Shown: positions 10,816 through 29,000 of the stretch, piece after piece
How positions within the stretch are numbered: position 1 is the first letter of the stretch
How the letters are laid out: every line of letters starts with the position of its first letter
Virus record (IMG/VR): IMGVR_UViG_3300048549_001496
Location: 1 to 31,434 of that record
Strand: one strand, 5' to 3'
Origin: a virus
Length of the DNA: 31,434 nucleotides
Notes under the pieces: model-generated
The model's input: the letters and a program-made list of their open reading frames with translations, nothing else
The model's database searches: none
What the model was told of the DNA's origin: nothing
Position numbers and translations under genes: made by a program

Positions 10816-10998
10816 CTATTTATTTTTGGCTTTACCAACATTTAGAGCCGCCCAGTCAATTATCGAATAGATTTTTGCCCATAGCGTTCCCTCTTTTGGG
10901 GTTGGGGTTGCAGCAGCGATTGCAGATGCAAAAGCAATTCCAGCAGTCACTACGCCAAACCAAGGATTATCTTGAACCAGTTGAATAATTACGTCCAT
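10816..10998 (-). CDS. Small holin-like membrane protein, 60 aa
   Basis: The 60-residue product has one clear hydrophobic segment (WFGVVTAGIAFASAIAAATP, residues 13-32), then a KEGTLWAKIYSIIDWAALNVGKAKNK tail (given here as its two key parts: a short turn with Pro-Thr-Pro and the ending LNVGKAKNK). Small phage proteins with one membrane helix followed by an aromatic helix and ALNVGKAK-type end are common next to lysis genes and are often called holin-like. It is the last gene before the terminator. The start is preceded by GTGTAAATTA four bases upstream, a motif shared with two other genes. Confidence 0.65.
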   Translation of the reverse strand: MDVIIQLVQDNPWFGVVTAGIAFASAIAAATPTPKEGTLWAKIYSIIDWAALNVGKAKNK

Positions 10999-11912: not shown

Positions 11913-13262
11913 TTAAAATTCAAGCTTAATCGCTCTGGAAGTGCCAGCCAACCCTAAGTAAACATCGCTACCCTTGACTAAGGCTGTTGTTGAATAGCCA
12001 GTTCCTAGACTCATAATACCAGAACCTTCTTTAGCTGTAGGCTTACCATCCATGAATTCATGCTCATAATCTTTCCACTGAACCTCGTAAGTCTCTGGAT
12101 TAATTCGAAAACACTTAGTATCTGCCCAGAATGCACTATAAATCCAACCATCAGGAGCTAAGAAACCATGAAAATTTTTGTTCTTATTAGCTACTGCAAG
12201 GTAATCTTCTGGCAAATCTACCTCTTCATAAGTATCATCGGCGCAGTTAATAATTAAAATCTTTTTGCCTTGCCTTGGTAAACAAAACACTTTGTCAACA
12301 GCCTCTACATAAATCGCACCAACGTATTTATGAGTCCACCCTGAAACTCCTGAAGTAGCTGGAGGACCATCCAAGTAAGAGAAAATACCGAACTTATCAA
12401 TCTTAGCTACACTAGTACCTAATACTTGAGGCATGTATATCTCACCTTTTTTATCTACGGCAGCACCCCAGATATGATTACAGAATGTATACCGACTAGG
12501 TTTCTGGGGAGTAATAGACGCTACTTCACCAGTATTTGTGTTATAAGAAAAGATATGCAAGGTTTTCGTATAAGAGGGCATATAAATAATTCCATCATTA
12601 CCTTCTGCCCCAGATCTAATTTGAGGGCAAGAGGCAAATTTCTTTTCTAAAGTTATAGAGCCTGTCTTCCTACCTAATTTACCAATAGAAGTCTGGTAAG
12701 CTGGCAAGAAATATGTATAACCATCGGAAGCTTCGACGTTACCAATAAAACCTTTATAACCTACGCCATTTCTTTTTATAGAATCTGTAGATGTATCAGT
12801 CTCGATATGCATATCAGACTTATAACCTAAAGAATGTATTGTCCCGTTGTCATCTAAAGCCATTGTGCGGGTCTTAGTGAGATTGCCTACTATTTCATTG
12901 TCTAAATATTTAAAAGTTGGCCAAGAATGAGAGTTTAAATTAGTCGAGGAAGACCCAATACCCACGCTAGACGATCCGACTCCCACGCTAGACGATCCGA
13001 CTCCCACGCTAGACGATCCGACTCCCACGCTAGACGATCCGACTCCCACGCTAGACGATCCGACTCCCACGCTAGACGATCCGACTCCCACCCTAGACGA
13101 TCCGACTCCCACGCTAGACGATCCGATACCAGCGCTAGACGATCCAACCCCTACGCTAGACGATCCGACACCAATGCCAGAAGCCTTGTCCTCCAAATCT
13201 TCCATTTTTTTTAAAGAAGACTTAAGACTCTTTATTAATTTTCTAATTATACTATAGAACAT
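11913..13262 (-). CDS. Beta-propeller-like protein with tandem GVGSSSV repeats
   Basis: The 449-residue product has three parts. A short basic amphipathic N-terminus (residues 1-28) is followed by eleven tandem copies of a 7-residue unit G(V/I)GSSS(V/A/T) (about 30-107). The rest (115-449) is a region of recurring blade-like units of about 45-60 residues with pattern DG-x-I-Y-x-P and x-I-x-K-I, such as NDGIIYMPSYTKT, KKGEIYMPQVLGT and PDGWIYSAFWADT. Six or seven blades are plausible. No catalytic motif, signal peptide or membrane segment is evident. Virion-attached receptor/glycan-binding protein is one possibility given its position near lysis genes. A second ATG at 13203-13205 (MEDLEDKA) could be the true start; neither has a clear ribosome site. 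Confidence 0.72.
   Translation of the reverse strand: MFYSIIRKLIKSLKSSLKKMEDLEDKASGIGVGSSSVGVGSSSAGIGSSSVGVGSSRVGVGSSSVGVGSSSVGVGSSSVGVGSSSVGVGSSSVGVGSSSVGIGSSSTNLNSHSWPTFKYLDNEIVGNLTKTRTMALDDNGTIHSLGYKSDMHIETDTSTDSIKRNGVGYKGFIGNVEASDGYTYFLPAYQTSIGKLGRKTGSITLEKKFASCPQIRSGAEGNDGIIYMPSYTKTLHIFSYNTNTGEVASITPQKPSRYTFCNHIWGAAVDKKGEIYMPQVLGTSVAKIDKFGIFSYLDGPPATSGVSGWTHKYVGAIYVEAVDKVFCLPRQGKKILIINCADDTYEEVDLPEDYLAVANKNKNFHGFLAPDGWIYSAFWADTKCFRINPETYEVQWKDYEHEFMDGKPTAKEGSGIMSLGTGYSTTALVKGSDVYLGLAGTSRAIKLEF
12942..13175. repeat. 21-bp tandem repeat (about 11 copies) inside the beta-propeller gene
   Basis: Units of 21 bases with consensus CTAGACGATCCGACTCCCACG run head to tail. Six consecutive copies are identical at DNA level and the copies at both ends diverge. 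One internal copy has ACC instead of ACG, giving SSR in place of SSS. Each unit encodes one GVGSSSV heptad. In-frame multiples of seven codons mean that copy number can change without frameshift. Confidence 0.92.
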
Positions 13263-13731: not shown

Positions 13732-14352
13732 CTAGAAAATTCTAATTCTACTCCTTATTTTTGAGACATGCCTACGTTTTTCTAAAACAGATCCTCCTTC
13801 TCTGCTGCCAGCTCCGTTAGTATTACCCTCAATAGTAACTACATAACCACTTGAGTCGATATCTTTAACAGCTAGACCTATATGAGAGAATGAAAAGACG
13901 ACAATGTCACCAGCTTTAATGTCCTCATTTGTAGGCTTCCGCAAATCAACCCCTTTTGAGCCTTGCTTTCTAGCCCAGTTTTCAAAATCCCAAGCTCCTG
14001 CTGTTTGAGGTCTTTTGAATGAAACATCCTGCCCTTCAATAGCTTCTTTAACCAACCAACAGATGAAGGCTGCACACCAAGGCCACCCCTTATCAGGGTC
14101 CAACCAAGTAGCGGCTTTATATACGTCAACCCTTGGGCCGCAGTTACTACCGTCAATTTCTGATACCCCAATTTCTCCGCGAGCTAAATTAACCATTTTC
14201 TCGGAAATACTACTTCCAGAAACTTCCGTTTCATCTGTAGATAACTTAGCTAGTATAGCGTTCCAAGTGACTGGACCATCAGATCCATCAGCAGAAACAC
14301 CTAATAGTTTTTGAACGGTTTTAACAACTTCTTTTTTTGATTTAAAGTCCAT
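13732..14352 (-). CDS. Endolysin: CHAP amidase/peptidase with N-terminal peptidoglycan-binding-like domain
   Basis: The 206-residue product has an N-terminal PG_binding_1-like block (VVKTVQKLLGVSADG and GPVTWNAILAKL, residues 9-37), a Thr/Ser linker, and a CHAP domain. The catalytic cysteine is in WPWCAAFICW (C93), histidine in FSFSHIGLAV (H157), and Glu/Asn in TIEGNTNG (E175, N177). CHAP enzymes cut peptidoglycan peptide or amide bonds. There is no signal peptide, so export depends on the holin encoded by the next gene upstream (5-base gap). Size and order match phage lysis cassettes of diderm hosts. Confidence 0.9.
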   Translation of the reverse strand: MDFKSKKEVVKTVQKLLGVSADGSDGPVTWNAILAKLSTDETEVSGSSISEKMVNLARGEIGVSEIDGSNCGPRVDVYKAATWLDPDKGWPWCAAFICWLVKEAIEGQDVSFKRPQTAGAWDFENWARKQGSKGVDLRKPTNEDIKAGDIVVFSFSHIGLAVKDIDSSGYVVTIEGNTNGAGSREGGSVLEKRRHVSKIRSRIRIF

Positions 14353-14357
14353 TTTAA

Positions 14358-14672
14358 TTATTTTTTAATTATTTTTTCAGGGTTTTTTGCATATTTTTTA
14401 GCTAATGCAATCAAACCATTTATGATTTCAGGACTAATTACACCAACAACACCATATGAAACAGCTTTAACTAAATCACTTATGGGAGCATCATGCAGAA
14501 TGAACCATAAAATCATAGAGAGTATTGCTGCAGAACTAACATTTTTTGCAAATTCCTTCCAACAGTATTCTACTTTCGAGTTCAGCATACGAGCTATCAT
14601 TCCTGCAGCCCCAATTATTGGAATAACCCATCCGCCATCCAGAAATTCTCTCATTAGATTTTTTAGGTCCAT
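14358..14672 (-). CDS. Holin
   Basis: I choose the ATG at 14670-14672 (MDLKNLMREFLDGGWVIPII...), with a TTG six codons upstream as a weaker alternative. The 104-residue product has three hydrophobic stretches: GWVIPIIGAAGMIARML (14-30), AAILSMILWFIL (48-59) and AVSYGVVGVISPEIINGLIAL (70-90), then a basic tail ending EKIIKK. The layout and GAAGMIARML and ISPEIINGLI blocks match a phage holin family found beside endolysins. The gene directly precedes the endolysin. The start is six bases after GTGTAAGTTA, a motif shared with two other genes. Confidence 0.85.
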   Translation of the reverse strand: MDLKNLMREFLDGGWVIPIIGAAGMIARMLNSKVEYCWKEFAKNVSSAAILSMILWFILHDAPISDLVKAVSYGVVGVISPEIINGLIALAKKYAKNPEKIIKK

Positions 14673-14722
14673 GTAAATTAACTTACACAAAATGCTACCA
14701 AATATGTGTATATATTATTAAT
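14673..14722. promoter_or_regulatory. Divergent promoter region between holin and acidic-protein genes
   Basis: The 50 bases separate the leftward holin ATG and the rightward ATG at 14723. The rightward side has TATATATTATTAAT just upstream of the ATG, with a candidate -10 TATTAT that would give an almost leaderless transcript. The leftward side carries GTGTAAGTTA six bases before the holin ATG. No single -35/-10 pair is conclusive. Confidence 0.45.
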
Positions 14723-15928
14723 ATGGACAAACACAGTAAAGATATTTCAGAAGCAAAAGCTTTTGCTAAAAAATACTGTAATCCAAAAGATAGCGACATT
14801 ATTTCTGATTTAGATCGCCATGCAAGAGAAACAGCATGGACATTACTTCAAAGGATAAAACATTTAGAAAGAAAGTCCTGTGTTTGTGAAGAATGTGGCT
14901 CTGAAGTAGAAGAAGAAACTGTAACCGAAGAGATTACAGAAGAGGAAGAGAGAGAAGAAGCCCAAGTCGAAAAAAATAAAAATCAAGAAGTCAAAGGTGA
15001 AACCCCTGAGACTTCTACTATGGATAAACTTGGAGAAATAGCTGAAAAAAATAAAGATATTTTAGATAAAGCCGCAAAAGGCACGGCGGCTGCAGCAGCG
15101 GCTGGAGTAACAACCCAAACTGCAAGTGCTGCCACTGGTTTAAGTGCTTTTGTGCAAGAGACGGCTCAAAAAATAGGGACGATTGGAATCGCTGGTACTA
15201 TGTCCATAGGTAGTGGAGCCTACTTTCAAGCCAAAACGACAAAAGAAAAGGGTACTGAAATAGCTGTTGTGGCAGAGCAAGAGCATAAAGTATTTTCTAA
15301 TTTAAACGATTTTACTGAGACAACAATTGGTTTCCAACCTTTTGGTGGCGTTACCGAGGCGATTGTAGAATACGCCGAAAAAGGTTATGGAGATGTCGTC
15401 GGTACATCTGAAGAAGGTTACGAAGGAGACGAAGAAGGAGAAGGTGAAGGATCTAGTGGTGAAGAAGGAGAGGGCGAAACGTCAAATGAAGAAGCCTCTA
15501 ATGAGGGAGAAGGAAATGAAGGAGAGCCTACAGAAGAAAGTAATGAAGAAGGTGAAGAAAAAGCAGTTAAAGAGGAAGACTCTGTAGAATCCGAAGAAGA
15601 ATCCGAAAGTGAAGAAGAATCTGAAGAAGAAGAGACCAAAGAAGAATCTGAAGAGGAATCTAAAGAAGAAAGCGAAGAGGAGACTAAAGAGGAGGAGCCT
15701 GAACAGGAAAAACCCGAAGAAGAAGAAAAAGAAGAAGAAGAAGAAGTGGAGGAAGAATCTGAAGAGGGTGAGCCTGAAGAAAAAGAGGAGCCTGAAGAAC
15801 AGTCTGAAGAGGGCGAAGAGGAAAAAACAGATATTGAGAATTCAGAAGAGACATTTGAACTAGAAGAAGATGATCAAGTCACTCAAGTCCCTGATGTGAT
15901 TAAACTCCCCAACATGATCAGAAAATAG
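14723..15928 (+). CDS. Highly acidic, Glu-repeat protein with Cys motif and Ala/Gly-rich hydrophobic centre
   Basis: The 401-residue product has four zones. An N-terminal helical part (1-50) ends in a CVCEECG knuckle (C53, C55, C58, with C19 further away), which might bind a metal. A helical part and a hydrophobic Ala/Gly-rich stretch (119-168: KGTAAAAAAGVTTQTASAAT and IGTIGIAGTMSIGSGAYF) may insert in or lie on a membrane. A small folded block (190-225) is followed by an acidic Glu/Ser low-complexity tail (229-385). The tail DNA is rich in GAA/GAG words. I recognise no family. It starts the rightward island inside the lysis region. Confidence 0.68.
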   Translation: MDKHSKDISEAKAFAKKYCNPKDSDIISDLDRHARETAWTLLQRIKHLERKSCVCEECGSEVEEETVTEEITEEEEREEAQVEKNKNQEVKGETPETSTMDKLGEIAEKNKDILDKAAKGTAAAAAAGVTTQTASAATGLSAFVQETAQKIGTIGIAGTMSIGSGAYFQAKTTKEKGTEIAVVAEQEHKVFSNLNDFTETTIGFQPFGGVTEAIVEYAEKGYGDVVGTSEEGYEGDEEGEGEGSSGEEGEGETSNEEASNEGEGNEGEPTEESNEEGEEKAVKEEDSVESEEESESEEESEEEETKEESEEESKEESEEETKEEEPEQEKPEEEEKEEEEEVEEESEEGEPEEKEEPEEQSEEGEEEKTDIENSEETFELEEDDQVTQVPDVIKLPNMIRK

Positions 15929-15933
15929 TTATT

Positions 15934-16125
15934 ATGGAAGATTTATTTGAAAAAATACTTGCTCCTTACATGGGATCAATGCCTGAGTTTATTATTTCTA
16001 TCTTGGGTTTATTGGGGACGCTTTCTTATATTGTACCTGAAGATAGTAAGCTAGGTAGGTTGTTAGGTAAGTTGACGGGGAATCTAACTAAACTTAAAAA
16101 CTTTATACTAAAAAAGAAGAAATGA
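15934..16125 (+). CDS. Small membrane protein, 63 aa
   Basis: ATG at 15934, five bases after the previous stop. The 63-residue product has one hydrophobic segment (FIISILGLLGTLSYIV, residues 19-34) between a short acidic start and a basic Lys-rich tail (LKKKK). One pass with N-out or N-in orientation is not decided by sequence. Its stop overlaps the ATG of the PEP-CTERM-like gene, so the two are translationally coupled. A third holin-type protein or an anchor/partner for the next protein are both possible. Confidence 0.62.
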   Translation: MEDLFEKILAPYMGSMPEFIISILGLLGTLSYIVPEDSKLGRLLGKLTGNLTKLKNFILKKKK

Positions 16126-16949
16126 AGCGCACACTAATAACTTTACTCTCAATTATTTCCGTAGCTAAATCTGCTGTTATTACCTCTGTAGAAGGAAATG
16201 TATTCCTAATAAACCCTACAGAAAACCCTAGCATCAACCCTGTAGTCAATATCCAAAGACCCATCCAGATCAGCAATGAGGAAGTTATAGATATAGCTGA
16301 AAGTGAAGATAAGAAATTAGATATGGTTATCACTTGGGACGCAGAAGAAGAGGATATTTATGATTTTTATGACGCTCCAAATTGGGATTTTTCACAATCA
16401 GATTCTCTGGAATTAGATAGGGATTCTCCTATCGCTAACATATTAACTATTACAGACGCTTTGATACTTGAAGATAGCCCCTCTTATTCAAATATCGAAA
16501 TCGGTGATGGGTTTTCAGTAACATTAAAATCTACGAATTTTACTTTTCAAAACAATAATGGTTTTACTGGAGTAGATGATGATGATAATGTTTATTCTAC
16601 TTTAAATATAACTGAAGGGTCGAGTATGGACGCTATGTTTTCTGCAATCGGTTTAAAGATAAATGTTGATTCAACCAGTAGTTTAACTCTACGAGGGGCT
16701 GGAGACTCAATCAATAGTCAAACCGAAAGGTCTATCGTTAACTTATCTCCAAATGCCCAACTCACTTTAAGTTCATTAGATCAATTCGCGGTACAAGGCG
16801 ATGATATTTACTTCAATGGTGTATCATTCTCCCAAAACCCTGAGATTTTAAAATTTAATGGTAATACAGGCACTGCAATCCCAGAAGCACATTTAATTTT
16901 GTTGAGTGCCATATCCACAATATTACTTTTAGGTCAAAGAAGAAGATAG
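16122..16949 (+). CDS. Secreted PEP-CTERM-like (exosortase substrate) surface protein
   Basis: The 275-residue product has a Sec signal peptide (MKRTLITLLSIISVAKSA, cleavage near residue 18). A strand-rich, Asn/Asp/Ser-rich extracellular region contains MVITWDAEEEDIYDFYDAPNW (residues 68-88, key Trp72 and Trp88), recalling the W-D...N-W start of secreted verrucomicrobial and planctomycete beta-helix-like proteins. The C-terminal tripartite tail is IPEA (253-256), a hydrophobic helix (257-271) and RRR (273-275). This is the layout of PEP-CTERM sorting signals, where the PEP core here reads PEA. Such tails are recognised and cut by exosortase in the inner membrane. No exosortase is in the window, so the host enzyme must serve. 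A different C-tail anchor cannot be excluded. Confidence 0.7.
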   Translation: MKRTLITLLSIISVAKSAVITSVEGNVFLINPTENPSINPVVNIQRPIQISNEEVIDIAESEDKKLDMVITWDAEEEDIYDFYDAPNWDFSQSDSLELDRDSPIANILTITDALILEDSPSYSNIEIGDGFSVTLKSTNFTFQNNNGFTGVDDDDNVYSTLNITEGSSMDAMFSAIGLKINVDSTSSLTLRGAGDSINSQTERSIVNLSPNAQLTLSSLDQFAVQGDDIYFNGVSFSQNPEILKFNGNTGTAIPEAHLILLSAISTILLLGQRRR

Positions 16950-16965
16950 TAATATTTAATCAGCA

Positions 16966-17226
16966 CTATTTCCCACTGGGGAAATAAAGTTGCCTCTCAA
17001 GTTTGCGAAACCTAGCATCAGAATGCCAGACTTCGTTTTTTTGCGGAGTGTAAATACCTTTTTCAGTCTGAATCGGCTGGTCCTTCTGTAGTTTTAGAGT
17101 AGAAGGCTGATAAATGTTTAAATCTTGAACGCTCTGAGATAAGTCTTTCGCGCAAGAGGTCAGCCCTATCAGAGTCATTACTACCGCCGCGCTGCCTAAG
17201 ATCTTCGATTTCTTGAATGATTTCAT
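16966..17226 (-). CDS. o-spanin lipoprotein (Rz1-like)
   Basis: The 86-residue product begins MKSFKKSKILGSAAVVMTLIGLTSCAKD with a lipobox LTSC (L22-C25; cleavage before C25), then a short polar mature part with QPSTLKLQKDQPIQTEKG. The gene starts inside the i-spanin gene in another frame and runs past its end, as in overlapping Rz/Rz1 pairs. The o-spanin sits in the outer membrane and joins the i-spanin across the periplasm to fuse or disrupt the envelope. The short length and lipobox match this role; function is inferred from architecture and context. Confidence 0.78.
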   Translation of the reverse strand: MKSFKKSKILGSAAVVMTLIGLTSCAKDLSQSVQDLNIYQPSTLKLQKDQPIQTEKGIYTPQKNEVWHSDARFRKLERQLYFPSGK

Positions 17227-17332
17227 ATTCTAATTTCTTGTGTTTATTGTGCAAATCATAGTAAAATTGTTTATTTTTAAGAGCTAAAAACAATTCTAAA
17301 GATTTTAAAATAGATTTTATTAATGTCAACAT
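17063..17332 (-). CDS. i-spanin (Rz-like), overlapping o-spanin
   Basis: The 89-residue product begins with a short hydrophobic/amphipathic segment (MLTLIKSILKSLELFLALKN, residues 1-20), followed by a charged helix likely to form a coiled coil (KKLEYEIIQEIEDLRQR and ADLLRERLISERSRFKHL). The frame shares 164 bases with the o-spanin gene. The N-terminal segment is weaker than a classical transmembrane anchor, which is a caution. Position in the leftward lysis region and the embedded lipoprotein gene support the i-spanin call. Confidence 0.72.
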   Translation of the reverse strand: MLTLIKSILKSLELFLALKNKQFYYDLHNKHKKLEYEIIQEIEDLRQRGGSNDSDRADLLRERLISERSRFKHLSAFYSKTTEGPADSD

Positions 17333-18280: not shown

Positions 18281-20401
18281 ATGGCGGAAGAAGGAAAAAA
18301 TAAAGTAGCGCGTAGCTTGTTAGATCTACAACCAACTGCTATATTGGAGATGTTCAGGGTTTATCCTGACAGGATAAATAAGCCAGATTCTTGGCTAGGT
18401 TTTCATGGAGGCTCCATATATTCTGACTGTATAACTTGGCAAGGTTCTAAATATGAACCTTTAGCTATGGAAAGCGAAGGCTTCGATATATTAGGGGATG
18501 GAAAATTAGCTCGACCTAAAATCCGCGTATCTAATAAAAACAATATAATAACTCAACTATTACAGGTCCATAAGGATTTTAAGAACGCCAAATTTGTAAG
18601 AAAAAGAGTATCTGTAAAATTCATCGATGATGTCAATTTCGAGGGCGGTAACCCATTTGGAGAGGCAGACTCGAAAGCAGAACTAACAGACGAGACATGG
18701 CTAATGGGTAGAAAAACTCAGGAATCTAAATTATTTGTCGAGTTCGAACTTAATTCACCGTTAGACTTAGAGAGTTCTAGTATAAATTCTCGTAGCGTAG
18801 TTTCTAAATTCTGCTACTGGCAATATAGAGGGGAGGGTTGTAGATATCAAGGTTTACCTATAGAAAGGGATGATGGTGAGAAATTCCAAGATCTAGATGG
18901 GAATGGAGTCTCTCCAAATTATTCCCCACCAATCGGTTCGCCAGTTTCATTTTTTAATGACCAGTCTGCGATATGGAGCAGTTCAAGAGACTATGTCAAA
19001 GGCGATGTTGTTATGACGAAAAGTCCAACTATTTTTTTAGCGAACCCCAATCCAAATTTAGAAGGAGAACCTCTAAAGACCGCTTATGTATGCGTACAGA
19101 ATAATAAAGGGCAAGCTCCAGAAGGTAATCCCAGTTTCTGGCAAAGAGACGGATGCACTAAAAGACTCTCCGCATGTAGAAAAAGGTTTAATACTATAGA
19201 TTTAGTAGCATTCGAAGAGGGGCAAAATATCAATAGCGGTTTTAATGCAGTAAAAATTTCTGGTATGAAAAGCGAGGGGGATGATATCCCGACGAATACA
19301 GGGTTATTTCATACTAACGAGCTAGGATTAACAGGTCAACTCACAGGTGAATTCACTATTATGGGTTGGGTTAATATCGACATTAATAGCCCAGCTGGAG
19401 CAGGAATATTAAGCACTTCGCCGAGAGACGATCAGTTCTGGCCCAATACACAATATCTAAATATCAATGCTAATACTAGCCTACTTAATATAACAAGTTC
19501 CTCACAAAACTACAAAAGAGGGGATAAGACCAATCAAATATCAGCTAGTTATTTTGGTTATAAGATAAGCCCAAGTACGGATCATCCAAATAGCAATGCT
19601 TATAGGACTATAAATCTAAGCAAAGAGCAAAATGCTGGAGATTCAAGAGAATGGGTCCAGTATGTAATAACACATAGTAAAGATGATTCTGTTATTAATG
19701 GGGGCGGGGAAGACCAGAATACATTAATTAAATTTTACGTGGATGGGCAACTTCTATCAGACCCCAAAAACGCCAATACTATTGGCACCGCAAACGCAGC
19801 GAATAAACAAGGTAATTTCGCCAGTTTAACTCAAAGAAAAAATATGAATTGGGGTACTGATGGCGAAATAGCGCTACCTCAAACATTTATGTTGGGTGCG
19901 GTAGAATTCTATGGAGGAAGAAGAGGTTATGAACTTCCCACAACACCTCACACAACTTCAATGAATGGTGCGCTTGGGCCTTGGGCAGTATGGAATAGAC
20001 CGATCAACGATGAAGAAATAAGCTACCTCTATAAAAAAATACCCACCCCAAATAATACTTCCAACACTTTAGATTTTGCCCCTCGAAATTATTATGAATG
20101 TACTGGAAGATTTGGGACATTAACGGGAAGTGGTGATGGGACACTTTCTTACGGAAAGGACAGTCTAGTCGCTTGGTGGGATGCCTCAACTGGACTAATA
20201 CCATCCACTTCAGATATAGGAATGTTAGATATTCATACAGGAAATCTCCACTTAACTGGAAGCGGCCAATTCACAGGGATACTCCAAGATTACAAACAAG
20301 CGCCATCAACACTTTTACCAAACCCAACCCCAGAATTCCCAAACTTTGGAGGATTTCCTGGAACTGACGGATTCGGCTATGCAAGAAATACACAGATGTA
20401 A
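18281..20401 (+). CDS. Tail tip protein gpL-like, with CBM-like insert and LamG-like C-terminal domain
   Basis: The 706-residue product begins with a gpL-like domain: FRVYPDRINKP, then WLGFHGGSIYSDCITWQGSKY. It has the cysteine set C50, C178, C187, C292 and C299 (FCYWQYRGEGC and GCTKRLSACRKRF), the sites that hold an iron-sulfur cluster in lambda gpL. Between C187 and C292 lies a CBM5/12-like insert (WSSSRDYVKGDVV ... YVCVQNNKGQAPEG ... FWQRD, 232-290). Residues about 320-600 form a LamG/concanavalin-like jelly roll (GEFTIMGWVNIDI, WVQYVITHSKDDSV, FMLGAVEFYGGRRGY, GALGPWAVWNRPINDEEISYLY). It assembles at the tail tip with gpK, gpI and gpJ, and the additions may bind glycans. It starts the rightward operon. 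Confidence 0.86.
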   Translation: MAEEGKNKVARSLLDLQPTAILEMFRVYPDRINKPDSWLGFHGGSIYSDCITWQGSKYEPLAMESEGFDILGDGKLARPKIRVSNKNNIITQLLQVHKDFKNAKFVRKRVSVKFIDDVNFEGGNPFGEADSKAELTDETWLMGRKTQESKLFVEFELNSPLDLESSSINSRSVVSKFCYWQYRGEGCRYQGLPIERDDGEKFQDLDGNGVSPNYSPPIGSPVSFFNDQSAIWSSSRDYVKGDVVMTKSPTIFLANPNPNLEGEPLKTAYVCVQNNKGQAPEGNPSFWQRDGCTKRLSACRKRFNTIDLVAFEEGQNINSGFNAVKISGMKSEGDDIPTNTGLFHTNELGLTGQLTGEFTIMGWVNIDINSPAGAGILSTSPRDDQFWPNTQYLNINANTSLLNITSSSQNYKRGDKTNQISASYFGYKISPSTDHPNSNAYRTINLSKEQNAGDSREWVQYVITHSKDDSVINGGGEDQNTLIKFYVDGQLLSDPKNANTIGTANAANKQGNFASLTQRKNMNWGTDGEIALPQTFMLGAVEFYGGRRGYELPTTPHTTSMNGALGPWAVWNRPINDEEISYLYKKIPTPNNTSNTLDFAPRNYYECTGRFGTLTGSGDGTLSYGKDSLVAWWDASTGLIPSTSDIGMLDIHTGNLHLTGSGQFTGILQDYKQAPSTLLPNPTPEFPNFGGFPGTDGFGYARNTQM

Positions 20402-20786
20402 AGGGGAGGTAACTGCCCTCCATAAAATAAAAGAAATGTCCCACAGGCATTTCACTCAAGAAATATGTGGTTTTTTAGGTTACGATAATGAGAAAAAAGA
20501 ATTTATCGTCCAACGTGAAGACAATATAGCCGAAGACCCTAGATCACACTTCCTTATCAACCCTTTAAGCTACCTACTTTTCAAAGACTCTTGTAGTATG
20601 GTAGGGGTTTTTCATAGTCATATAGTAGGAAATGAAAAAGAATCAGAATTTGATGTGAAAATGGCAGATAATTGTTGCCAGCCATTCTTAATATACAGTC
20701 TTAACACAAAAAAAATAAATATTTATACGCCCAAAACCATAGAATCAGATGTAAATATATTGGAAAGGGTAAAGGCTGTAAAATGA
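20379..20786 (+). CDS. Tail assembly protein gpK-like, JAMM/MPN domain only
   Basis: I use the ATG at 20379 (MQEIHRCKGEVTALHKIKEM...), overlapping the end of the gpL-like gene by 23 bases; a TTG at 20346 is the weaker longer start. The 135-residue product carries EICGFLG (28-34) and an intact JAMM metal site H-x-H-x7-S-x2-D (FHSHIVGNEKESEFD; H79, H81, S89, D92), as in lambda gpK. Lambda gpK also has a C-terminal NlpC/P60 domain; here the frame ends after the JAMM domain. The metalloprotease is thought to act in tail tip assembly. Its stop overlaps the gpI ATG (ATGA). Confidence 0.85.
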   Translation: MQEIHRCKGEVTALHKIKEMSHRHFTQEICGFLGYDNEKKEFIVQREDNIAEDPRSHFLINPLSYLLFKDSCSMVGVFHSHIVGNEKESEFDVKMADNCCQPFLIYSLNTKKINIYTPKTIESDVNILERVKAVK

Positions 20787-21397
20787 CGATAGTAAATATA
20801 CATGGAATTCTAGCTAGAGAGTTTGGTAACTCATTTAAATTAAGCCTTCCTAATCCAAGAGATGTCTTAGAAGCTATAGACTGTAATAGAGAGGGTTTTC
20901 TGCAGAGATTAGTAGAATTGCAGAGAGAAGGGCTTTGTTATGACCTTATAATAAATAAAGAACGAATCACTAATGGCCCAGATATGGATAACATATCGAA
21001 TGCAGCTACGATAGATTTAGTTCCCGCTATCTCAGGTAGTGGAACGGCAATTGCAATGGGTCTAAAAGCAATCGGAACATTCTTAGCTAAGAAAACTTTG
21101 GCAGCTACTCTAGTGAAAGCAGTTCTTTTCGCAGCAATTAGTTATGCGCTATCACCAAAACCTGAAAACGAAGCTCTAGAGATAGAAGTTGATGGGTCGA
21201 AAAGCTCCCTTATTTTTAGTAATCCAGTAAATGTAGCCAGCCAAGGTTCTCCAGTCCCCATAGGTTATGGCAGATTGCAAGTCGGATCACAAGTAGTGCA
21301 AGCCACAATCAAATCGTTCCCACAACATCAAGAACCTTCAAAGGCTTTAGGAGCCGATAAAGGTAATCCAAATTTTGTAGGTAATAGAACATCATGA
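20783..21397 (+). CDS. Tail assembly protein gpI-like (ubiquitin-like domain)
   Basis: The 204-residue product has an N-terminal ubiquitin-like beta-grasp pattern (TIVNIHGILAREFGNSFKL ... NRLVE-type helix). A central hydrophobic Ala/Gly-rich part (AIAMGLKAIGTFLAKKTL ... ATLVKAVLFAAISYALS) and the C-terminal block PVNVASQGSPVPIGYGRLQV, shared by gpI proteins, follow. gpK (JAMM) and gpI (Ub-like) are encoded side by side in lambda-like tails, matching the order here. It is essential for tail tip assembly in lambda. Starts and stops overlap neighbours by four bases on both sides. Confidence 0.88.
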   Translation: MTIVNIHGILAREFGNSFKLSLPNPRDVLEAIDCNREGFLQRLVELQREGLCYDLIINKERITNGPDMDNISNAATIDLVPAISGSGTAIAMGLKAIGTFLAKKTLAATLVKAVLFAAISYALSPKPENEALEIEVDGSKSSLIFSNPVNVASQGSPVPIGYGRLQVGSQVVQATIKSFPQHQEPSKALGADKGNPNFVGNRTS

Positions 21398-24300
21398 AAC
21401 ACCTCCTAAAAAAGTTAAGCATAGCGGGAGCAGGGAGTAAAGGTAGTAAACCTAAACCTCCTATTTACAAACCTCCTATCATGGGCGAACTCCAATATGG
21501 AGCATCTCATAGTTACGCAGAGACTTTAGATTTAATAAGCGATGGTCCTATTGAGGGGATTGTTAATTCGAATGGAGAAGTAGTAGACGGCTTGGATATT
21601 CTACAGGGTATTTACTTAGATAATACAGCTGTAGCCATTACTAATCAATTAGCTCAAAAGAAAAACAGTCTCACACCATTAGAACAAGAAACGTTTGATT
21701 CTCTAAACATAGAGTTAAATTCTGCTACATCAGTTGATTATGTTAGTAAATTTTTTCTAGAATTAGAAAAAGTAACTCAAAGGAGTGCTGCTGGTAAGAT
21801 TACATCTTTAAAATCTACACCCACGAAGCCTGTAGATATATTTGAGGTTGACTCATCGAATAATGCTAACATGGTATTTTTAAGGACGCATACAGATCAA
21901 TTCTCACCTATAGAGGCAAAAAACGCAACAGAACCCGCCGTTCTACCTAAGAAAATAACTGACTACGCTCTTTCTATAAGGCAATTTATTAAGTATAGAG
22001 ACGCAGGACCAGATCACACATTCCATCTGCATTTTGGTGATAATATATTATCTGCTTCTGATAATAACGCAGCTTATAGGAATGATGCTCAAGCAAAAGG
22101 GACTGTACAAACACAGAACTTAATATGGGCAGATAATGCCGCATTGGACTCGTCGAAATTTTTATTCGCTTTAAACCCTAGTATCGATTTTATATCAATC
22201 GATGGTCAGGTGGGCGTAATCGGGAGATTGAAAACTTCACTACATAAAGACTCTCAAATATTTGCTGGTAATACTCAAGTCCTCACTGACTCGACATTAT
22301 CTGATCTTGATGAAATTTTAAACTTGTATAATAATAATAGCACAAGTGAAGGAAATCAATTGCAGAAAGAATTAGCGTATAGAGCTTTATCGACAATAGG
22401 ATGGGAAGAGGGAGCGGTAAATAGTTTACTCCCTAATTACTTAGATAGTTCTGCTGGAGGTGTGGTTATATGCAAGATAGGAGATACAGATTATTCTAAT
22501 TTACAAACTAAAAATATCTTAGATGGCGATTCCTTGATTAAAATGAGAACTCTGCCATATGGTACTAAATATAAGTCTAACCTCATAGCTTATCTTCAAA
22601 ATTCAGATGTGAGAGTAACGGATGTTACTTGCCCAGAAATTTCTACAGATGGGCTTTTGACTGGGAAGATGCATGGGTTCTTAATTTTTGAATTCCCGAT
22701 TAATATAGAAACTAGTGATAATTATATTAGAAGGGCTAGAAATAATCAATCATTAGACCCTTTATTTTATGGTAAGAACCACACGTTTCAAATACCAGAC
22801 TATGTTATAGAACTTTTAAAAGACATAAGTTCATTTAGATACTCAAAGACAATTCAAGATGGATCTAATTCGACAACTTTGTCTTTAGACCCAACAATTA
22901 ATTCTATTCACAGCAACCAATTAAAATTTAATTACAGTAATGTATTAGCTGAAATTCGTAAAGGTGAAGAAAGTCAAACACCTTTTGATAACTTTAAAAA
23001 GATTTTCATCGATCACCCTTACAGTAGAGAATTATTTGGACCTTTTGGGACGGCTAAAGCAAAAGGTAGCGCGATAAACAATAATGAACAAACAAACGCT
23101 CCTCAACGAATCTCTGCTAACACTAACATGTTAACTAGGATTAACGTTTTAGAGAAAGATGCTAATAATTTTAACCTTGAGTTAGGTGAAGATGGACTAC
23201 CTACCACTGAAGGAAGTGATGATATAAGAATAGATTCGGGAAACAAAGATCGAAATTATTCAACTTGGGGGAATAGCTCTTTCCAGAGTTTTGATGAAAA
23301 AGCTATTCCAGTAATTCATACAATTTACAATCCTAATGTAGAAGAAGTTTTTATCACTTTAGATATATCCTCTCTAAAAGACACTCTTGTTAGAGATGTA
23401 AATAACGTTAGAAACAGCCCCCTACCAGATAATGAAAATTTAAAAACAGGGACAACTTTCCCTACAGTTTTAAATATAAGTGTTACCACTGGTTTTTTTG
23501 ATGAAAATGGAAATGAAGTAGAGTTCAGAACTTATGACTATAGAATAGTAGCATTAATAGATGGAAGCACTTTAATAGATATCGGGAATCCAGATTACAA
23601 ATCTACTGGTAGAGATTTCGTTGTAGAACTCAATAACTCAGATGATGATTTGAATTATCTTTCCCGACCCTTCCAACTCCCTGATAATAATATCCGAGAA
23701 AACTCATCTCTTAACGCAGATGGAGAACGGAGTATAGAAGCTGGAGTTATTGATAAAAATCAAGACAGAAAAAGATACGTAAAAATTCAAAAACTATCTT
23801 ATGAAACTAATTCTGTTTTACTGTCTAAAGTAGTAGCAGTAAGCAAAGTCACAGAAATAATAAATGCAGATCTACCTTATCCATTTTCTGCTATAGTAGG
23901 GACAAAATTAGACTCTAGATCTTTTGGTAGTATACCCAAAAGAAGTTTCGATTGTAAACTTAAAAAGGTAAAAATACCTAGTAATTATTTTCCTACTAAC
24001 AAAGGTATAGATAAAAGGTATTATAATACCACAGCTGAATTTGAAAATGCTAGCCAAGTAGATAAATCGATTTACAAAGGAGATTGGGATGGCTCTTTTC
24101 ACCAAACTCTACAATGGACAGATAACCCAGCGTGGATACTTTACGATCTACTGACAAATGTTAGATATGGGATGGGTTCTCACATCAGCGCAGACAACAT
24201 AAATAAATGGCAACTTTATAAAATAGGTAAATTCTGCGATAATGTAGATAATGAAGGAAACTTCTTAGGGGTAACTGACGGGAGAGGGGGGATAGAGCCT

Positions 24301-26070
24301 CGCTTTTCTTGCAACGTAGTATTCGATCAAGGACAAAAAATATTTGACGCTATAAATACTATAGCATCTCTCTTTAGAGGCCGAACTTTCTTTAGTAATT
24401 CTGAAATTAATTTTGTTGATGATAGACCTAGATCAGCAGTTAATCTTTTTACTAATGAAAGTGTAAAAGATGGTTTGTTTTTTTACTCAAACAACAGGAG
24501 AGACGAACAGTTTAATACTATAGAAATAGGCTATAGGGATAGATTCGATAATTACACCCCTAAAATAGAAGTCGTAGAAGACGAAGAGGATATTAAAGAG
24601 AGAGGGATTTTTAAAAAACGTATTGAGGGGGTCGGAATAACTTCTAGAGCTATGGCTCGTAGGGCAGCTCAACACCAAATCTTTTCTAAAATAAAAGAAA
24701 ATCAACAAATAGCTTTTACCGCTGGCTTAGAGACCCTCTTATGCAAACCTGGAGATCTAGTTATAGTAGAAGATGAACTGAAGACTAATATAACTAATTT
24801 CGGCAAAATTCTAGATGTTAACCTAGAAGATGAAACGATTAGACTTAGTAATACATCTTCTTCTTTAATGACGACGGGAGTTTTAACTGTTTATAACCCT
24901 ACTGGTAGTGACGACATTGATGAGTTAAATATAGCGGCAAATCAAAATAGGCAACGATATAATGGTTTTACTATTACTGGAAACAGTTCTTTGAGTGCAA
25001 GTTTTTCCCCATTTACTGGCCAATACAGCTTCTCAAACTACACAGATGGTTATAATCAATCAACTGGATTTAGCTCAGCAGATACTAGATATTCTGAGTA
25101 TGCTTTTTATACAGGGCTATCTGGCACATACTTATATTTTGAAACAGGTGTGACAGGGTGGGTTTTTGGGTCTGGAAATGCCAAATCTTTGTATTCTGGA
25201 GATTTTATTTCTAAAGAGACAGGGGCGCAAACACTTACAGAATTTAATACTGGTAAGATATGCGCTTTAAATATGAACACCTCAGATAAAAGGAATGCAT
25301 TCTCTATATCATTCTCAGGCTTTGATTCAGATAGTTTTAGAGGTTATACCAGAGGTATAACTAATTCAGAGTTATCTGGTCTAGCACCTGAACAAATAAT
25401 TGATATTAACGTAACTGGGATTGTAACTAATCTAGATTATGGATGTTCCCTTTCAGGCTTTGATAAACCAGAGCTTTTAAAATCTATCCACTTAGGTAGT
25501 GCAGCGAGATTTCAAATTAAAGATGCTAGTCCCTTCTTTTACAAAGTGATTTCGATGAAAGAAGAAAATCCTAATGAATATCTTGTCACTGCAACAAAAT
25601 ACGATACTGGTAAATTTGATCTCATCGACAAAAATATAAGCATAGAGAACGAAGCTAATACATTTAGTTACCAAGTAGCTCAAACAATTAACGGGGTGAC
25701 CTATGAGACTTTAAGCGCTCCCGCCTTTGCAGGAGATGTCACTACTGGGATACCTAATGCAACAGATCAAACCTTCAATATAACAGGAAATTGGAGCGCT
25801 GTAAATAATAGTACTGGTTATGGGGTAAGACTCACTCTACCAAACGGTCAAGTATTTAATAGTAGTACCACAGATACAGGCATTAGTATTTCTGGACTAA
25901 ATCAAGTGGGCGTGTTCAATCTAGGTGTAAATGCTCTTGGGAATATGGGGAGAAGTTGCGGTGGAAACGCATACTATGATTCTCCATATGTAGATACTGG
26001 AATATTTATTATTTACGAAGACGCTCTCACTTATACTAAATCATTTTTAAATAAAATAACCATTCTATAA
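21394..26070 (+). CDS. Central tail tip protein, gpJ-like
   Basis: The 1558-residue product starts with a gpJ-type N-terminus (GELQYGASHSYAETLDLISDG ... GIVN, key parts). It contains the conserved gpJ core around residues 830-1130: RSFGSIPKRSFDCKLKKVKI, WILYDLLTNVRYGMG, FDAINTIASLFRGRTFF, SNNRRDEQFNTIEIGYRD and CKPGDLVIVEDE. The C-terminal third has Ig/FnIII-like strand patterns (near 1470-1550: TFNITGNWSAVNNSTGYGVR). Residues 60-500 include an extra Asn/Ser-rich part. gpJ forms the hub from which the fibre and receptor-binding parts extend. The ATG overlaps the gpI stop and the stop overlaps the fibre ATG. Confidence 0.9.
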   Translation: MKHLLKKLSIAGAGSKGSKPKPPIYKPPIMGELQYGASHSYAETLDLISDGPIEGIVNSNGEVVDGLDILQGIYLDNTAVAITNQLAQKKNSLTPLEQETFDSLNIELNSATSVDYVSKFFLELEKVTQRSAAGKITSLKSTPTKPVDIFEVDSSNNANMVFLRTHTDQFSPIEAKNATEPAVLPKKITDYALSIRQFIKYRDAGPDHTFHLHFGDNILSASDNNAAYRNDAQAKGTVQTQNLIWADNAALDSSKFLFALNPSIDFISIDGQVGVIGRLKTSLHKDSQIFAGNTQVLTDSTLSDLDEILNLYNNNSTSEGNQLQKELAYRALSTIGWEEGAVNSLLPNYLDSSAGGVVICKIGDTDYSNLQTKNILDGDSLIKMRTLPYGTKYKSNLIAYLQNSDVRVTDVTCPEISTDGLLTGKMHGFLIFEFPINIETSDNYIRRARNNQSLDPLFYGKNHTFQIPDYVIELLKDISSFRYSKTIQDGSNSTTLSLDPTINSIHSNQLKFNYSNVLAEIRKGEESQTPFDNFKKIFIDHPYSRELFGPFGTAKAKGSAINNNEQTNAPQRISANTNMLTRINVLEKDANNFNLELGEDGLPTTEGSDDIRIDSGNKDRNYSTWGNSSFQSFDEKAIPVIHTIYNPNVEEVFITLDISSLKDTLVRDVNNVRNSPLPDNENLKTGTTFPTVLNISVTTGFFDENGNEVEFRTYDYRIVALIDGSTLIDIGNPDYKSTGRDFVVELNNSDDDLNYLSRPFQLPDNNIRENSSLNADGERSIEAGVIDKNQDRKRYVKIQKLSYETNSVLLSKVVAVSKVTEIINADLPYPFSAIVGTKLDSRSFGSIPKRSFDCKLKKVKIPSNYFPTNKGIDKRYYNTTAEFENASQVDKSIYKGDWDGSFHQTLQWTDNPAWILYDLLTNVRYGMGSHISADNINKWQLYKIGKFCDNVDNEGNFLGVTDGRGGIEPRFSCNVVFDQGQKIFDAINTIASLFRGRTFFSNSEINFVDDRPRSAVNLFTNESVKDGLFFYSNNRRDEQFNTIEIGYRDRFDNYTPKIEVVEDEEDIKERGIFKKRIEGVGITSRAMARRAAQHQIFSKIKENQQIAFTAGLETLLCKPGDLVIVEDELKTNITNFGKILDVNLEDETIRLSNTSSSLMTTGVLTVYNPTGSDDIDELNIAANQNRQRYNGFTITGNSSLSASFSPFTGQYSFSNYTDGYNQSTGFSSADTRYSEYAFYTGLSGTYLYFETGVTGWVFGSGNAKSLYSGDFISKETGAQTLTEFNTGKICALNMNTSDKRNAFSISFSGFDSDSFRGYTRGITNSELSGLAPEQIIDINVTGIVTNLDYGCSLSGFDKPELLKSIHLGSAARFQIKDASPFFYKVISMKEENPNEYLVTATKYDTGKFDLIDKNISIENEANTFSYQVAQTINGVTYETLSAPAFAGDVTTGIPNATDQTFNITGNWSAVNNSTGYGVRLTLPNGQVFNSSTTDTGISISGLNQVGVFNLGVNALGNMGRSCGGNAYYDSPYVDTGIFIIYEDALTYTKSFLNKITIL

Positions 26071-29000
26071 TGAATTACACGGGATATTCAGTATTAAAAA
26101 TACCTAAGACTGGAGCAGCTTTTGCATACGCAAAAGAAGCAAGGGATTTCGCTACTGGAGCTACAGGAGTAGGAGGTTATTTACGTTCTGACGCAACTAC
26201 TTCTGGATGGACAGATGTGCGTTTTGTGAGCGCAATTCTAGAAGGCTCCAGCTCTTTACCTTTATCCATAGGAGCCACTTACTCGGATCTTTATACTGGC
26301 GCAGCTACTGTTATTGGCGGCTCTACCCCTATCGGAGATTTAAGATCAGAAGATGGACCCTATGTTGGTGTAGGTAACAGTTCAGTTTATTCGACTAAAA
26401 AAGGTCAAGAATACGGAGCAGCTTTCTATGCCACTTATATCGGAGGTACTAATTCAGCACCTAAAAAAATTGGTATAGGAACCAGCAGCAGTGAAATTAG
26501 TACAAGCGGTTACTATGAGGGCAATTTTACCACCCGAAATATTAACGAATTTGAAAGCAATTACAATGCGGATCTAGACGATCCTACAAAAATAATTACA
26601 GGTAGTGGAGTATACACAAATGGGGCAGACATATCTCTTCAATTTAATATTCTAAATAGAAATGGTGAACTACTAACATCAGCAGCTCAAATAGCTGCTG
26701 ACCCTTTTGTTAGTAAACAAATAATTAGTATTTTAGATACTGATTCAAATGTAGTGTTTCCAAACTACAGAACCAATGGGGACTCAACCTTTAATTTCTC
26801 TCGTTCCCAAAATATAGATGTTTTTGGCTCTTATAACAGAAACTTTGGAATAAGAAATGAGGTTGTAAACCAAGACGGTGGAATTACGACTGGAGAGTTC
26901 TATCTCTACGCTAATACAGCTACATTCGATGGGGTGATAGTCCAAGCCTCTGGAGAGACATCTCTAAACCAAAACCTTAGTAACCATTTACCCCCGAACA
27001 CTGGCACTATAACATCTGCAGCTGATAGAGCAGATGCGATAAAATATTTTAATGATCAACCAATTAACGCTTCTGGATCTACTGGATTTATAGAGTTAAC
27101 ACTAAACTTCAACGAAAGTCCTAATTTTACTAACTTAGGAGATGTAGCTATATGGAATGGGACATCTGGCGATTTCGACACAAACAGAGGGAGTTTTGTA
27201 GGTAATTATCCATTAAATTCATTACAAGAAGGTCAAAAAATAATACTTACTGCCAATGATGGTATTATAGAAGGCACTGGGCTTTTCTTTAAATTGATTG
27301 CAGATAGTGCTGTAGGTTTTGAGCCAGAGATTTTAACTATAGGGCCATATACTCTTGAGCCTAATATAGAAGGCCCAGATTTAAATGTCTACAATCAAAG
27401 TATTGATCAACAAATTATCGTATCAGACATTTCTATTCAGGGTGGTGTAGAAGGAAATGCAACACAAGGTGGTCATTTAGGAATAGGTACGAGTGCGGTT
27501 AGTTCGTCGCAAATGTTGATTCAGGGCAACAATACTAGTGTAGAAATAGCTAATTCAGAAGGTTACGCAGTTAACTCTGAACAAAAATCAGCATTAGCCT
27601 CAATTGGCGGGACTATATCATCAACAGGATCAATGATCGCGGGAGGATCAGGTCATCACATTAGTGGCGATTTTGATACTATCGCTGGAGGAGCATTAGG
27701 AAATATTTCTGGAGGAGATTTCAACTTTATTGGTGGTGGATCTGGAATTGATGTAACCAACTCTGACTTTTCATCTTCACTTGGTGGTAGAAATAATGAT
27801 ATAAGTGGGGCTGATTATTCTGTTATACTAGGTGGAACTACTAACTCTATTATTACAGGGCAGAGTCATTTTATCGGAGGAGGTAGTCTTAATCAAATTT
27901 CAGGAACTAATGCAAACGATGACTTTTCTAACTCTTTAGTCGGAGGAACGGACAATAGAATATTTGACTGCCAATATTCGTTTATTGGAGCAGGAGCTTC
28001 GAATACCATTTATTCTAGTAGCTCCGTAATTGGTGGAGGCTCCAGTAATATCGCTTCTGGTGACTCTTCTGTGGTTTTTGGCGGCACGAATAATCAAGCT
28101 CTTGCTAATAAAAGTGTAGCTGCTGGCGCTTATTCTAAAGTTCAAGCGGGACATCATGGAGCTTTTGTATTTAGTGATTCTAATACCACACCAACATTAT
28201 CTACTGGGGCAAATACCGCGACTTTAAATTTCGAGGACGGAGTCTATGTTCAAACAACAAGCGGTCTTTATGTTAATGGGAACCCTGTAGTAACTGGATC
28301 TACAGCAGGAACTGATGATTTACAAGATGTTACTGATCGTGGTAATACTACAACTAATGATATTAGTATTGGATCGGCAACTAGCCCGAGCTTTACATCA
28401 GGAGGTGGTCTACAGATAACTCATGCTACTCAAGCAAATCTTAGATTATCAGACTCTACAGATGCTAGTTATAATACAGACGTAGCGATGTCTAATGATG
28501 ACTTCTTCCTTGTGAATAGGTCAGCAACAGGACACTTAAAATTCAGAGTGAATAATAGCACTGAAGCTATCACTGTATTACAAGATGGTAAAGTCGGTAT
28601 AGGGGCAACTGCTCCATCAGTAGGATTACAGCTTGGAAACAGTGCATCAGGGGAAACAAAAACTGCCATTTTCAATTCAGAAGGCGGCGCAGAAATTGGT
28701 CTCAAAATAAAATCTAGAACCAATAGAGCCAAACTAGCTGTATCTGATAATGATACTACTGCTTATGTGGTAGCAGAAGGGACGATAGCCTCATTTGGAA
28801 GATCGGATACAGCAGCATCTACTAACATATCAGTATTAGCTAATGGCAATGTCGGTATAGGATCAACGAGTCCTAGCCGTCTATTGACCCTAGAAAATAA
28901 CTCTTCCACAGTAACGAATAACTCCCAATTGAGAATCAATAATGCTGGAGCTGGTGATGCTTACATATATTTATTCGCTGGAAGTGATTGGTCATTAGGT

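Follow-up and report, generated by a model that had tools for sequence, protein, structure and literature searches.

Unrelated marine phages share a three-gene cassette in which the ectodomain of the last, predicted exported protein has been swapped, and this cassette is the larger feature that a preliminary description of the DNA had missed. The stretch analyzed here, called the window, is a 31,434-b IMG/VR virus record. We consider it reasonably probable that the phages make a host-derived surface protein whose C-terminal tail would be read by the host exosortase, and that the cassette moves between unrelated phages.

The cassette adjoins the lysis genes

The window encodes a lambda-like tail module, L/K/I/J, at positions 18281 to 26070, and the cassette lies at lower positions, in the order acidic protein, TM63, tailed protein. 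The first gene (14723 to 15928, plus strand) encodes an acidic, Glu-rich protein of 401 amino acids with two Gly/Ala-rich hydrophobic segments, and homologues of it stand ahead of TM63 in those loci that extend far enough. The second (15934 to 16125, plus strand), the partner of the tailed gene, encodes TM63, a basic, single-pass membrane protein of 63 amino acids. The third (16122 to 16949, plus strand) encodes the PEP-CTERM-like protein of 275 amino acids, predicted to be exported, with an ectodomain that we call type A; the assignment draws on the open reading frame, the IMG/VR loci, and alignment A1. Stop and start codons of the last two genes overlap in an ATGA (16122 to 16125, plus strand), an arrangement seen in 17 of 17 loci drawn from both ectodomain types, and the corresponding offset of -4 is listed in 20 further loci.

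In the gene order, the tailed gene falls between a holin-like gene and two overlapping frames that form a putative Rz/Rz1 pair. The holin-like gene (14358 to 14690, minus strand) matches the holin family phrog_785 weakly (E = 0.027), and next to it lies a CHAP-domain endolysin gene (13732 to 14352, minus strand; PF05257, E = 1.9e-7, and PHROG endolysins). On the other side, a putative Rz1-like lipoprotein with the lipobox LTSC (16966 to 17226, minus strand), conserved in homologous loci and without a match in PHROGs, is overlapped in another frame by a putative Rz-like coiled-coil subunit (17063 to 17332, minus strand) that is conserved beside the cassette. Judged from their sequences, these two frames look like an Rz1/Rz spanin pair.

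Elsewhere in the window, a frame on the minus strand (11913 to 13262) encodes a protein, without a Pfam match, in which numerous SSSVGVG repeats precede a likely beta-propeller, and a long open frame that resembles a tail-fibre gene and contains NVGIGTT repeats (26071 to 31434, plus strand) runs off the contig. A small membrane protein is encoded at 10816 to 10998 (minus strand); its homologue in T4-like phages matches phrog_9685, a family of unknown function, and adjoins the cassette directly. No kinship between this protein and TM63 was detectable (hhalign probability 0.9%, E = 0.058), nor did TM63 have a detectable relative in PHROGs.

The third gene encodes a protein with a tripartite tail

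The preliminary description had claimed a frame of 275 amino acids with a signal peptide, a W-D...N-W body, and an Ile-Pro-Glu/hydrophobic/Arg tail, and both the sequence and its homologues bear out this layout. Residues 1 to 18 (16122 to 16175, plus strand) form a putative Sec signal peptide, MKRTLITLLSIISVAKSA, in which inspection reveals typical n, h, and c regions and an AXA-like site, and which is conserved in homologues. The putative beta-rich type A ectodomain follows (16176 to 16874, plus strand); its W72-D73 and N87-W88 are invariant in the 27 homologues of alignment A1. The protein ends in the tail AIPEAHLILLSAISTILLLGQRRR (16875 to 16946, plus strand), composed of A-I-P-E255, the stretch A256-G271 without charged residues except His, and QRRR, and thus has the hydrophobic stretch of about 14 residues and the terminal basic cluster of a PEP-CTERM sorting domain.

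We recovered 31 loci of the type A protein from IMG/VR, with 71 to 93% identity, and 32 in a second scan. At the codon level, I253-P254-E255 is invariant in 28 homologues despite synonymous variation, and residue 273 is K or R in all of them, so that the spacing from the glutamate to the basic residue is fixed. In the same 28 genes the letters of the hydrophobic stretch vary while its character is kept. Homologues in other phages retain the Pro-Glu and the basic end; indeed, each of 50 distinct C-termini from the slot has Pro-Glu, whichever ectodomain type precedes it. The next residue is A, I, L, V, S, M, or F and in none of the 50 is it Pro, so the replacement of Pro by Ala at the third motif position, noted earlier for the window protein, was read correctly and extends as a non-Pro residue to the whole family. 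The near-invariant Pro-Glu-Pro of the PEP-CTERM sorting domain (TIGR02595/PF07589) is therefore absent. Among 14 host tails found without requiring Pro, 12 have the second Pro, and some host proteins (PEV, PES) likewise lack it.

The structure prediction proposed in the preliminary description for the type A body yielded no usable model (AlphaFold, pLDDT 31). For the alternative, type B, ectodomain, AlphaFold gave a beta-rich model of medium confidence (pLDDT 61, pTM 0.60), whose Foldseek matches in the PDB, to CBM-like and jelly-roll folds, were weak, the best reaching E = 1.1e-3 with a TM of about 0.3; we therefore left the fold unassigned.

The tail resembles verrucomicrobial sorting tails

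We formulated a tail rule, PE followed by 12 to 18 uncharged hydrophobic residues and a basic end. None of 92,800 shuffled phage C-termini satisfied it; across 393 kb of phage sequence, it was satisfied by the five copies of the tailed gene alone. No curated sorting model, including those for PEP-CTERM, scored above its cut-off on the window protein or its relatives. The best curated match of the window tail was a sub-threshold one to PEFG-CTERM (E = 0.022, 14.5 of 25 bits), and TIGR02595 and PF07589 gave sub-threshold matches on single relatives only. Whole type B proteins aligned over body and tail with the NCBIfam PEP-CTERM family NF038120, at E values of 0.0024 to 0.0086, below its cut-off.

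An earlier HMM of host tails had been built in part from matches of the phage profile and was circular; it was rebuilt without those, from 22 verrucomicrobial PEP-CTERM tails none of which had been fetched via a phage profile, and the result held. Searched against 1,837 phage C-termini, this HMM returned cassette proteins as its first 14 matches, with E values down to 8e-8 for type B, 0.01 for type A of T4-like phages, and 0.25 for the window copy at rank 12. Similarly, an HMM built from just 12 tails, which TIGR02595 had detected in marine Verrucomicrobiota, returned cassette proteins as its first seven matches. Because type A tails score lower than type B tails, they make the weaker case. 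Two loci link the ectodomain types: L193 combines a type B body with a tail resembling type A, LPEASAILFAAIPMILLLSKKRR, and L354 a type B body with the type A-like tail TAIPEASVALLSGLSILLLLQRRK.

By layout and relatives, as read from these sequence comparisons, the tailed protein is PEP-CTERM-like; its motif and its scores against the curated cut-offs place it outside PEP-CTERM in the strict sense. The earlier reading as a PEP-CTERM-like exosortase substrate thus stands as far as a sorting-like tail on a phage protein is concerned, and falls short at the curated cut-offs and at the second Pro, which all homologues lack. We think that the protein is probably handled by a verrucomicrobial exosortase.

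The cassette occurs in three phage backgrounds

Many copies of the cassette are present in IMG/VR, distributed over siphophages with lambda-type tails, a lineage of about 118 kb, and T4-like myoviruses. The T4-like carriers have gp32, gp59, gp2, gp4, and tail tube genes, and neither the window nor the 118 kb contig has any of the T4 genes tested; the 118 kb contig lacks the tail genes of the window and has its own tape measure gene. Holin-like and Rz-like relatives are common to the 118 kb lineage and the siphophages, whose contigs are fragments; some parts of these two lineages may therefore be related to each other.

Across the three backgrounds, TM63 homologues are 60 to 100% identical. With a dN/dS of about 0.03 to 0.05, a value read at saturated synonymous sites, TM63 is by this codon comparison under strong purifying selection.

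Some cassette carriers encode further predicted envelope or secreted proteins. Likely outer-membrane beta-barrel genes were seen in phage loci at L189:4969-5643, L192:1496-2170, L205:5738-6412, and L024:4106-4882, three of the four directly 3' of a type B gene. A secreted EF-hand protein (Pfam EF-hand) is encoded in T4-like carriers at L024:14324-14791 and L023:10618-11088.

The ectodomain is exchanged between phages

The slot after TM63 holds either type A, as in the window, or the non-homologous type B ectodomain, and each type was found in all three backgrounds. Between the window and L021 the flanks are 98 to 100% identical and the tailed gene 67 to 88%; between the siphophage L022 and the T4-like L019, the first part of the tailed gene has 92 to 98% DNA identity. 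Read from these alignments, the pattern is that of allele replacement at one gene. Since the exported part is what is swapped between phages, this suggests that the phages may clothe the infected cell in surface proteins borrowed from the host. Two ectodomains in three backgrounds beside a near-invariant TM63 amount to a natural swap experiment, which suggests that the tail and TM63 form the constant core and that the ectodomain is the part that varies.

Verrucomicrobiota as candidate hosts

Verrucomicrobiota are our best guess for the host phylum, judged from Shine-Dalgarno use, the A1 and A3 matches, and exosortase frequency. Phage genes (window, G001, G002, and T4-like loci) use Shine-Dalgarno motifs at background (0.01 to 0.13), as do most sampled Verrucomicrobiota, with the exception of BACL9 (G009; 0.53); low use fits Bacteroidota and some others too. 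The A1 profile matched one of 388 Verrucomicrobiota genomes, its columns 160 to 252 aligning with the N-terminal domain of a secreted protein (E = 9.8e-12) whose C-terminal part looks, by eye, like a sialate-esterase-type enzyme. With A3, the type B alignment, seven of eight matches in 289 genomes fell on host PEP-CTERM tails, with one PEV. Exosortase is encoded in 213 of 289 Verrucomicrobiota and is thus common in the predicted host phylum.

No exosortase gene was found in the phages, and no whole-protein homologue in bacterial genomes (A1 genome scan, profiles in Opitutales, 388 Verrucomicrobiota genomes). The closest cultured T4-like relative, C48C1, has a Shine-Dalgarno use of about 0.5 and no listed host. 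The cassette provides candidate markers for phages that infect marine Verrucomicrobiota, of which few are cultured.

Proposed mechanism and alternatives

We propose that the tailed protein, made together with TM63 through ATGA coupling, would leave the cytoplasm through Sec and be anchored in the inner membrane through its Pro-Glu/hydrophobic/basic tail, as in verrucomicrobial PEP-CTERM proteins. The host exosortase would then most likely recognize the tail and bring the ectodomain to the surface of the cell or into the matrix, and the three-gene cassette would move between unrelated phages of the same hosts. As for its role, we tentatively favor, as the most likely one, a changed surface of the infected cell to which further phages, rivals or progeny, would adsorb less. 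Eased release through the matrix or envelope seems rather unlikely, and occupation of the exosortase less likely still. Exchange of alleles in a protein that is predicted to be exported and is encoded next to lysis genes would fit an interaction at the cell surface on which selection shifts, for example, superinfection exclusion, release, or occupation of the exosortase.

Alternatively, the product might be an uncleaved type I membrane protein that works in the periplasm and forms an inner-membrane complex with TM63 and the acidic protein, controlling lysis or blocking the DNA entry of other phages, the tail being merely an anchor. Membrane-like segments in all three cassette proteins, the position among lysis genes, and the strong purifying selection on TM63 would agree with this, as would a topology like that of a unimolecular spanin minus the lipid. 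However, such an anchor needs neither an invariant Pro-Glu at fixed distance nor a match to host sorting tails, neither ectodomain type has a lipobox, and Rz-like genes already accompany the cassette in two of the backgrounds, the siphophages and the 118 kb lineage; we regard it as unlikely. A true unimolecular spanin, such as gp11 of phage T1, has an N-terminal lipobox for its outer-membrane lipid anchor and a C-terminal TM segment. We rejected this candidate, since no Cys stands at the end of the signal peptide in type A or, according to alignment A3, type B.

The tail could also be a decoy that binds exosortase, is cleaved poorly without the second Pro, and blocks sorting of host surface proteins late in infection. 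This would account for a non-Pro residue after Pro-Glu in 50 of 50 phage C-termini of both types, compared with Pro in 12 of 14 host tails. Yet it requires neither two different conserved ectodomains nor allele exchange, host PEV and PES proteins also lack the Pro, and the motif of the true host may be a variant one; we judge a decoy improbable. Finally, the possibility that an ordinary phage protein happens to end in a hydrophobic stretch, to which the sub-threshold curated scores of the window protein would conform, is very hard to reconcile with conservation in 50 distinct C-termini on two bodies, with 0 of 92,800 shuffles, and with the top ranks in the host-tail HMM searches.

Returning to host-sorted surface display, a bolder version can be offered as speculation that we hold to be doubtful: a mobile three-gene system of unrelated phages of marine Verrucomicrobiota would employ the host exosortase to cover the infected cell with exchangeable proteins of host origin, whose alleles would set which competing phages or which matrix is tolerated, and the missing second Pro would tune or block release from exosortase.

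Relation to known systems

The PEP-CTERM/exosortase system (EpsH, PF09721; TIGR02595/PF07589) was described by Haft et al. 2006 in Verrucomicrobium spinosum and others (PMC1569441). The cassette protein resembles its substrates in a putative signal peptide, diverse ectodomains, Pro-Glu, a hydrophobic stretch of about 15 residues, and a basic end, and both the phage ectodomain and the tail have relatives in Verrucomicrobiota. Unlike them, it is phage encoded, belongs to a three-gene cassette, never has Pro after Pro-Glu, and scores below curated cut-offs, and its processing by exosortase is putative. Within NCBIfam, the PEP_CTERM_QFxxD family NF038120 comes close to type B, whose ectodomain and tail align at profile positions 78 to 215; however, type B reaches 17.8 of the 80 bits needed, and the type A body has no match. 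The MYXO-CTERM/myxosortase and GlyGly-CTERM/rhombosortase systems share the logic of a tripartite C-terminal tag but use other motifs and enzymes and are encoded by bacterial genes (PMC11980579, PMC3237569).

Among open-access titles and abstracts in which PEP-CTERM or exosortase was sought in combination with phages, prophages, or viruses, we found no phage-encoded exosortase-type substrate. Prophages of Gram-positive bacteria encode LPXTG proteins, for example, staphylococcal SasX, which are phage products displayed by the host sortase. The cassette protein is likewise the product of a phage gene that would be sorted by the host, here by a predicted exosortase route. LPXTG systems involve sortase, the cell wall, and temperate Gram-positive phages, whereas the cassette is predicted to involve exosortase and an outer-membrane/EPS envelope. 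If this is true, phages of Gram-negative bacteria remodel the surface of the infected cell via host protein sorting, as Gram-positive prophages do via sortase.
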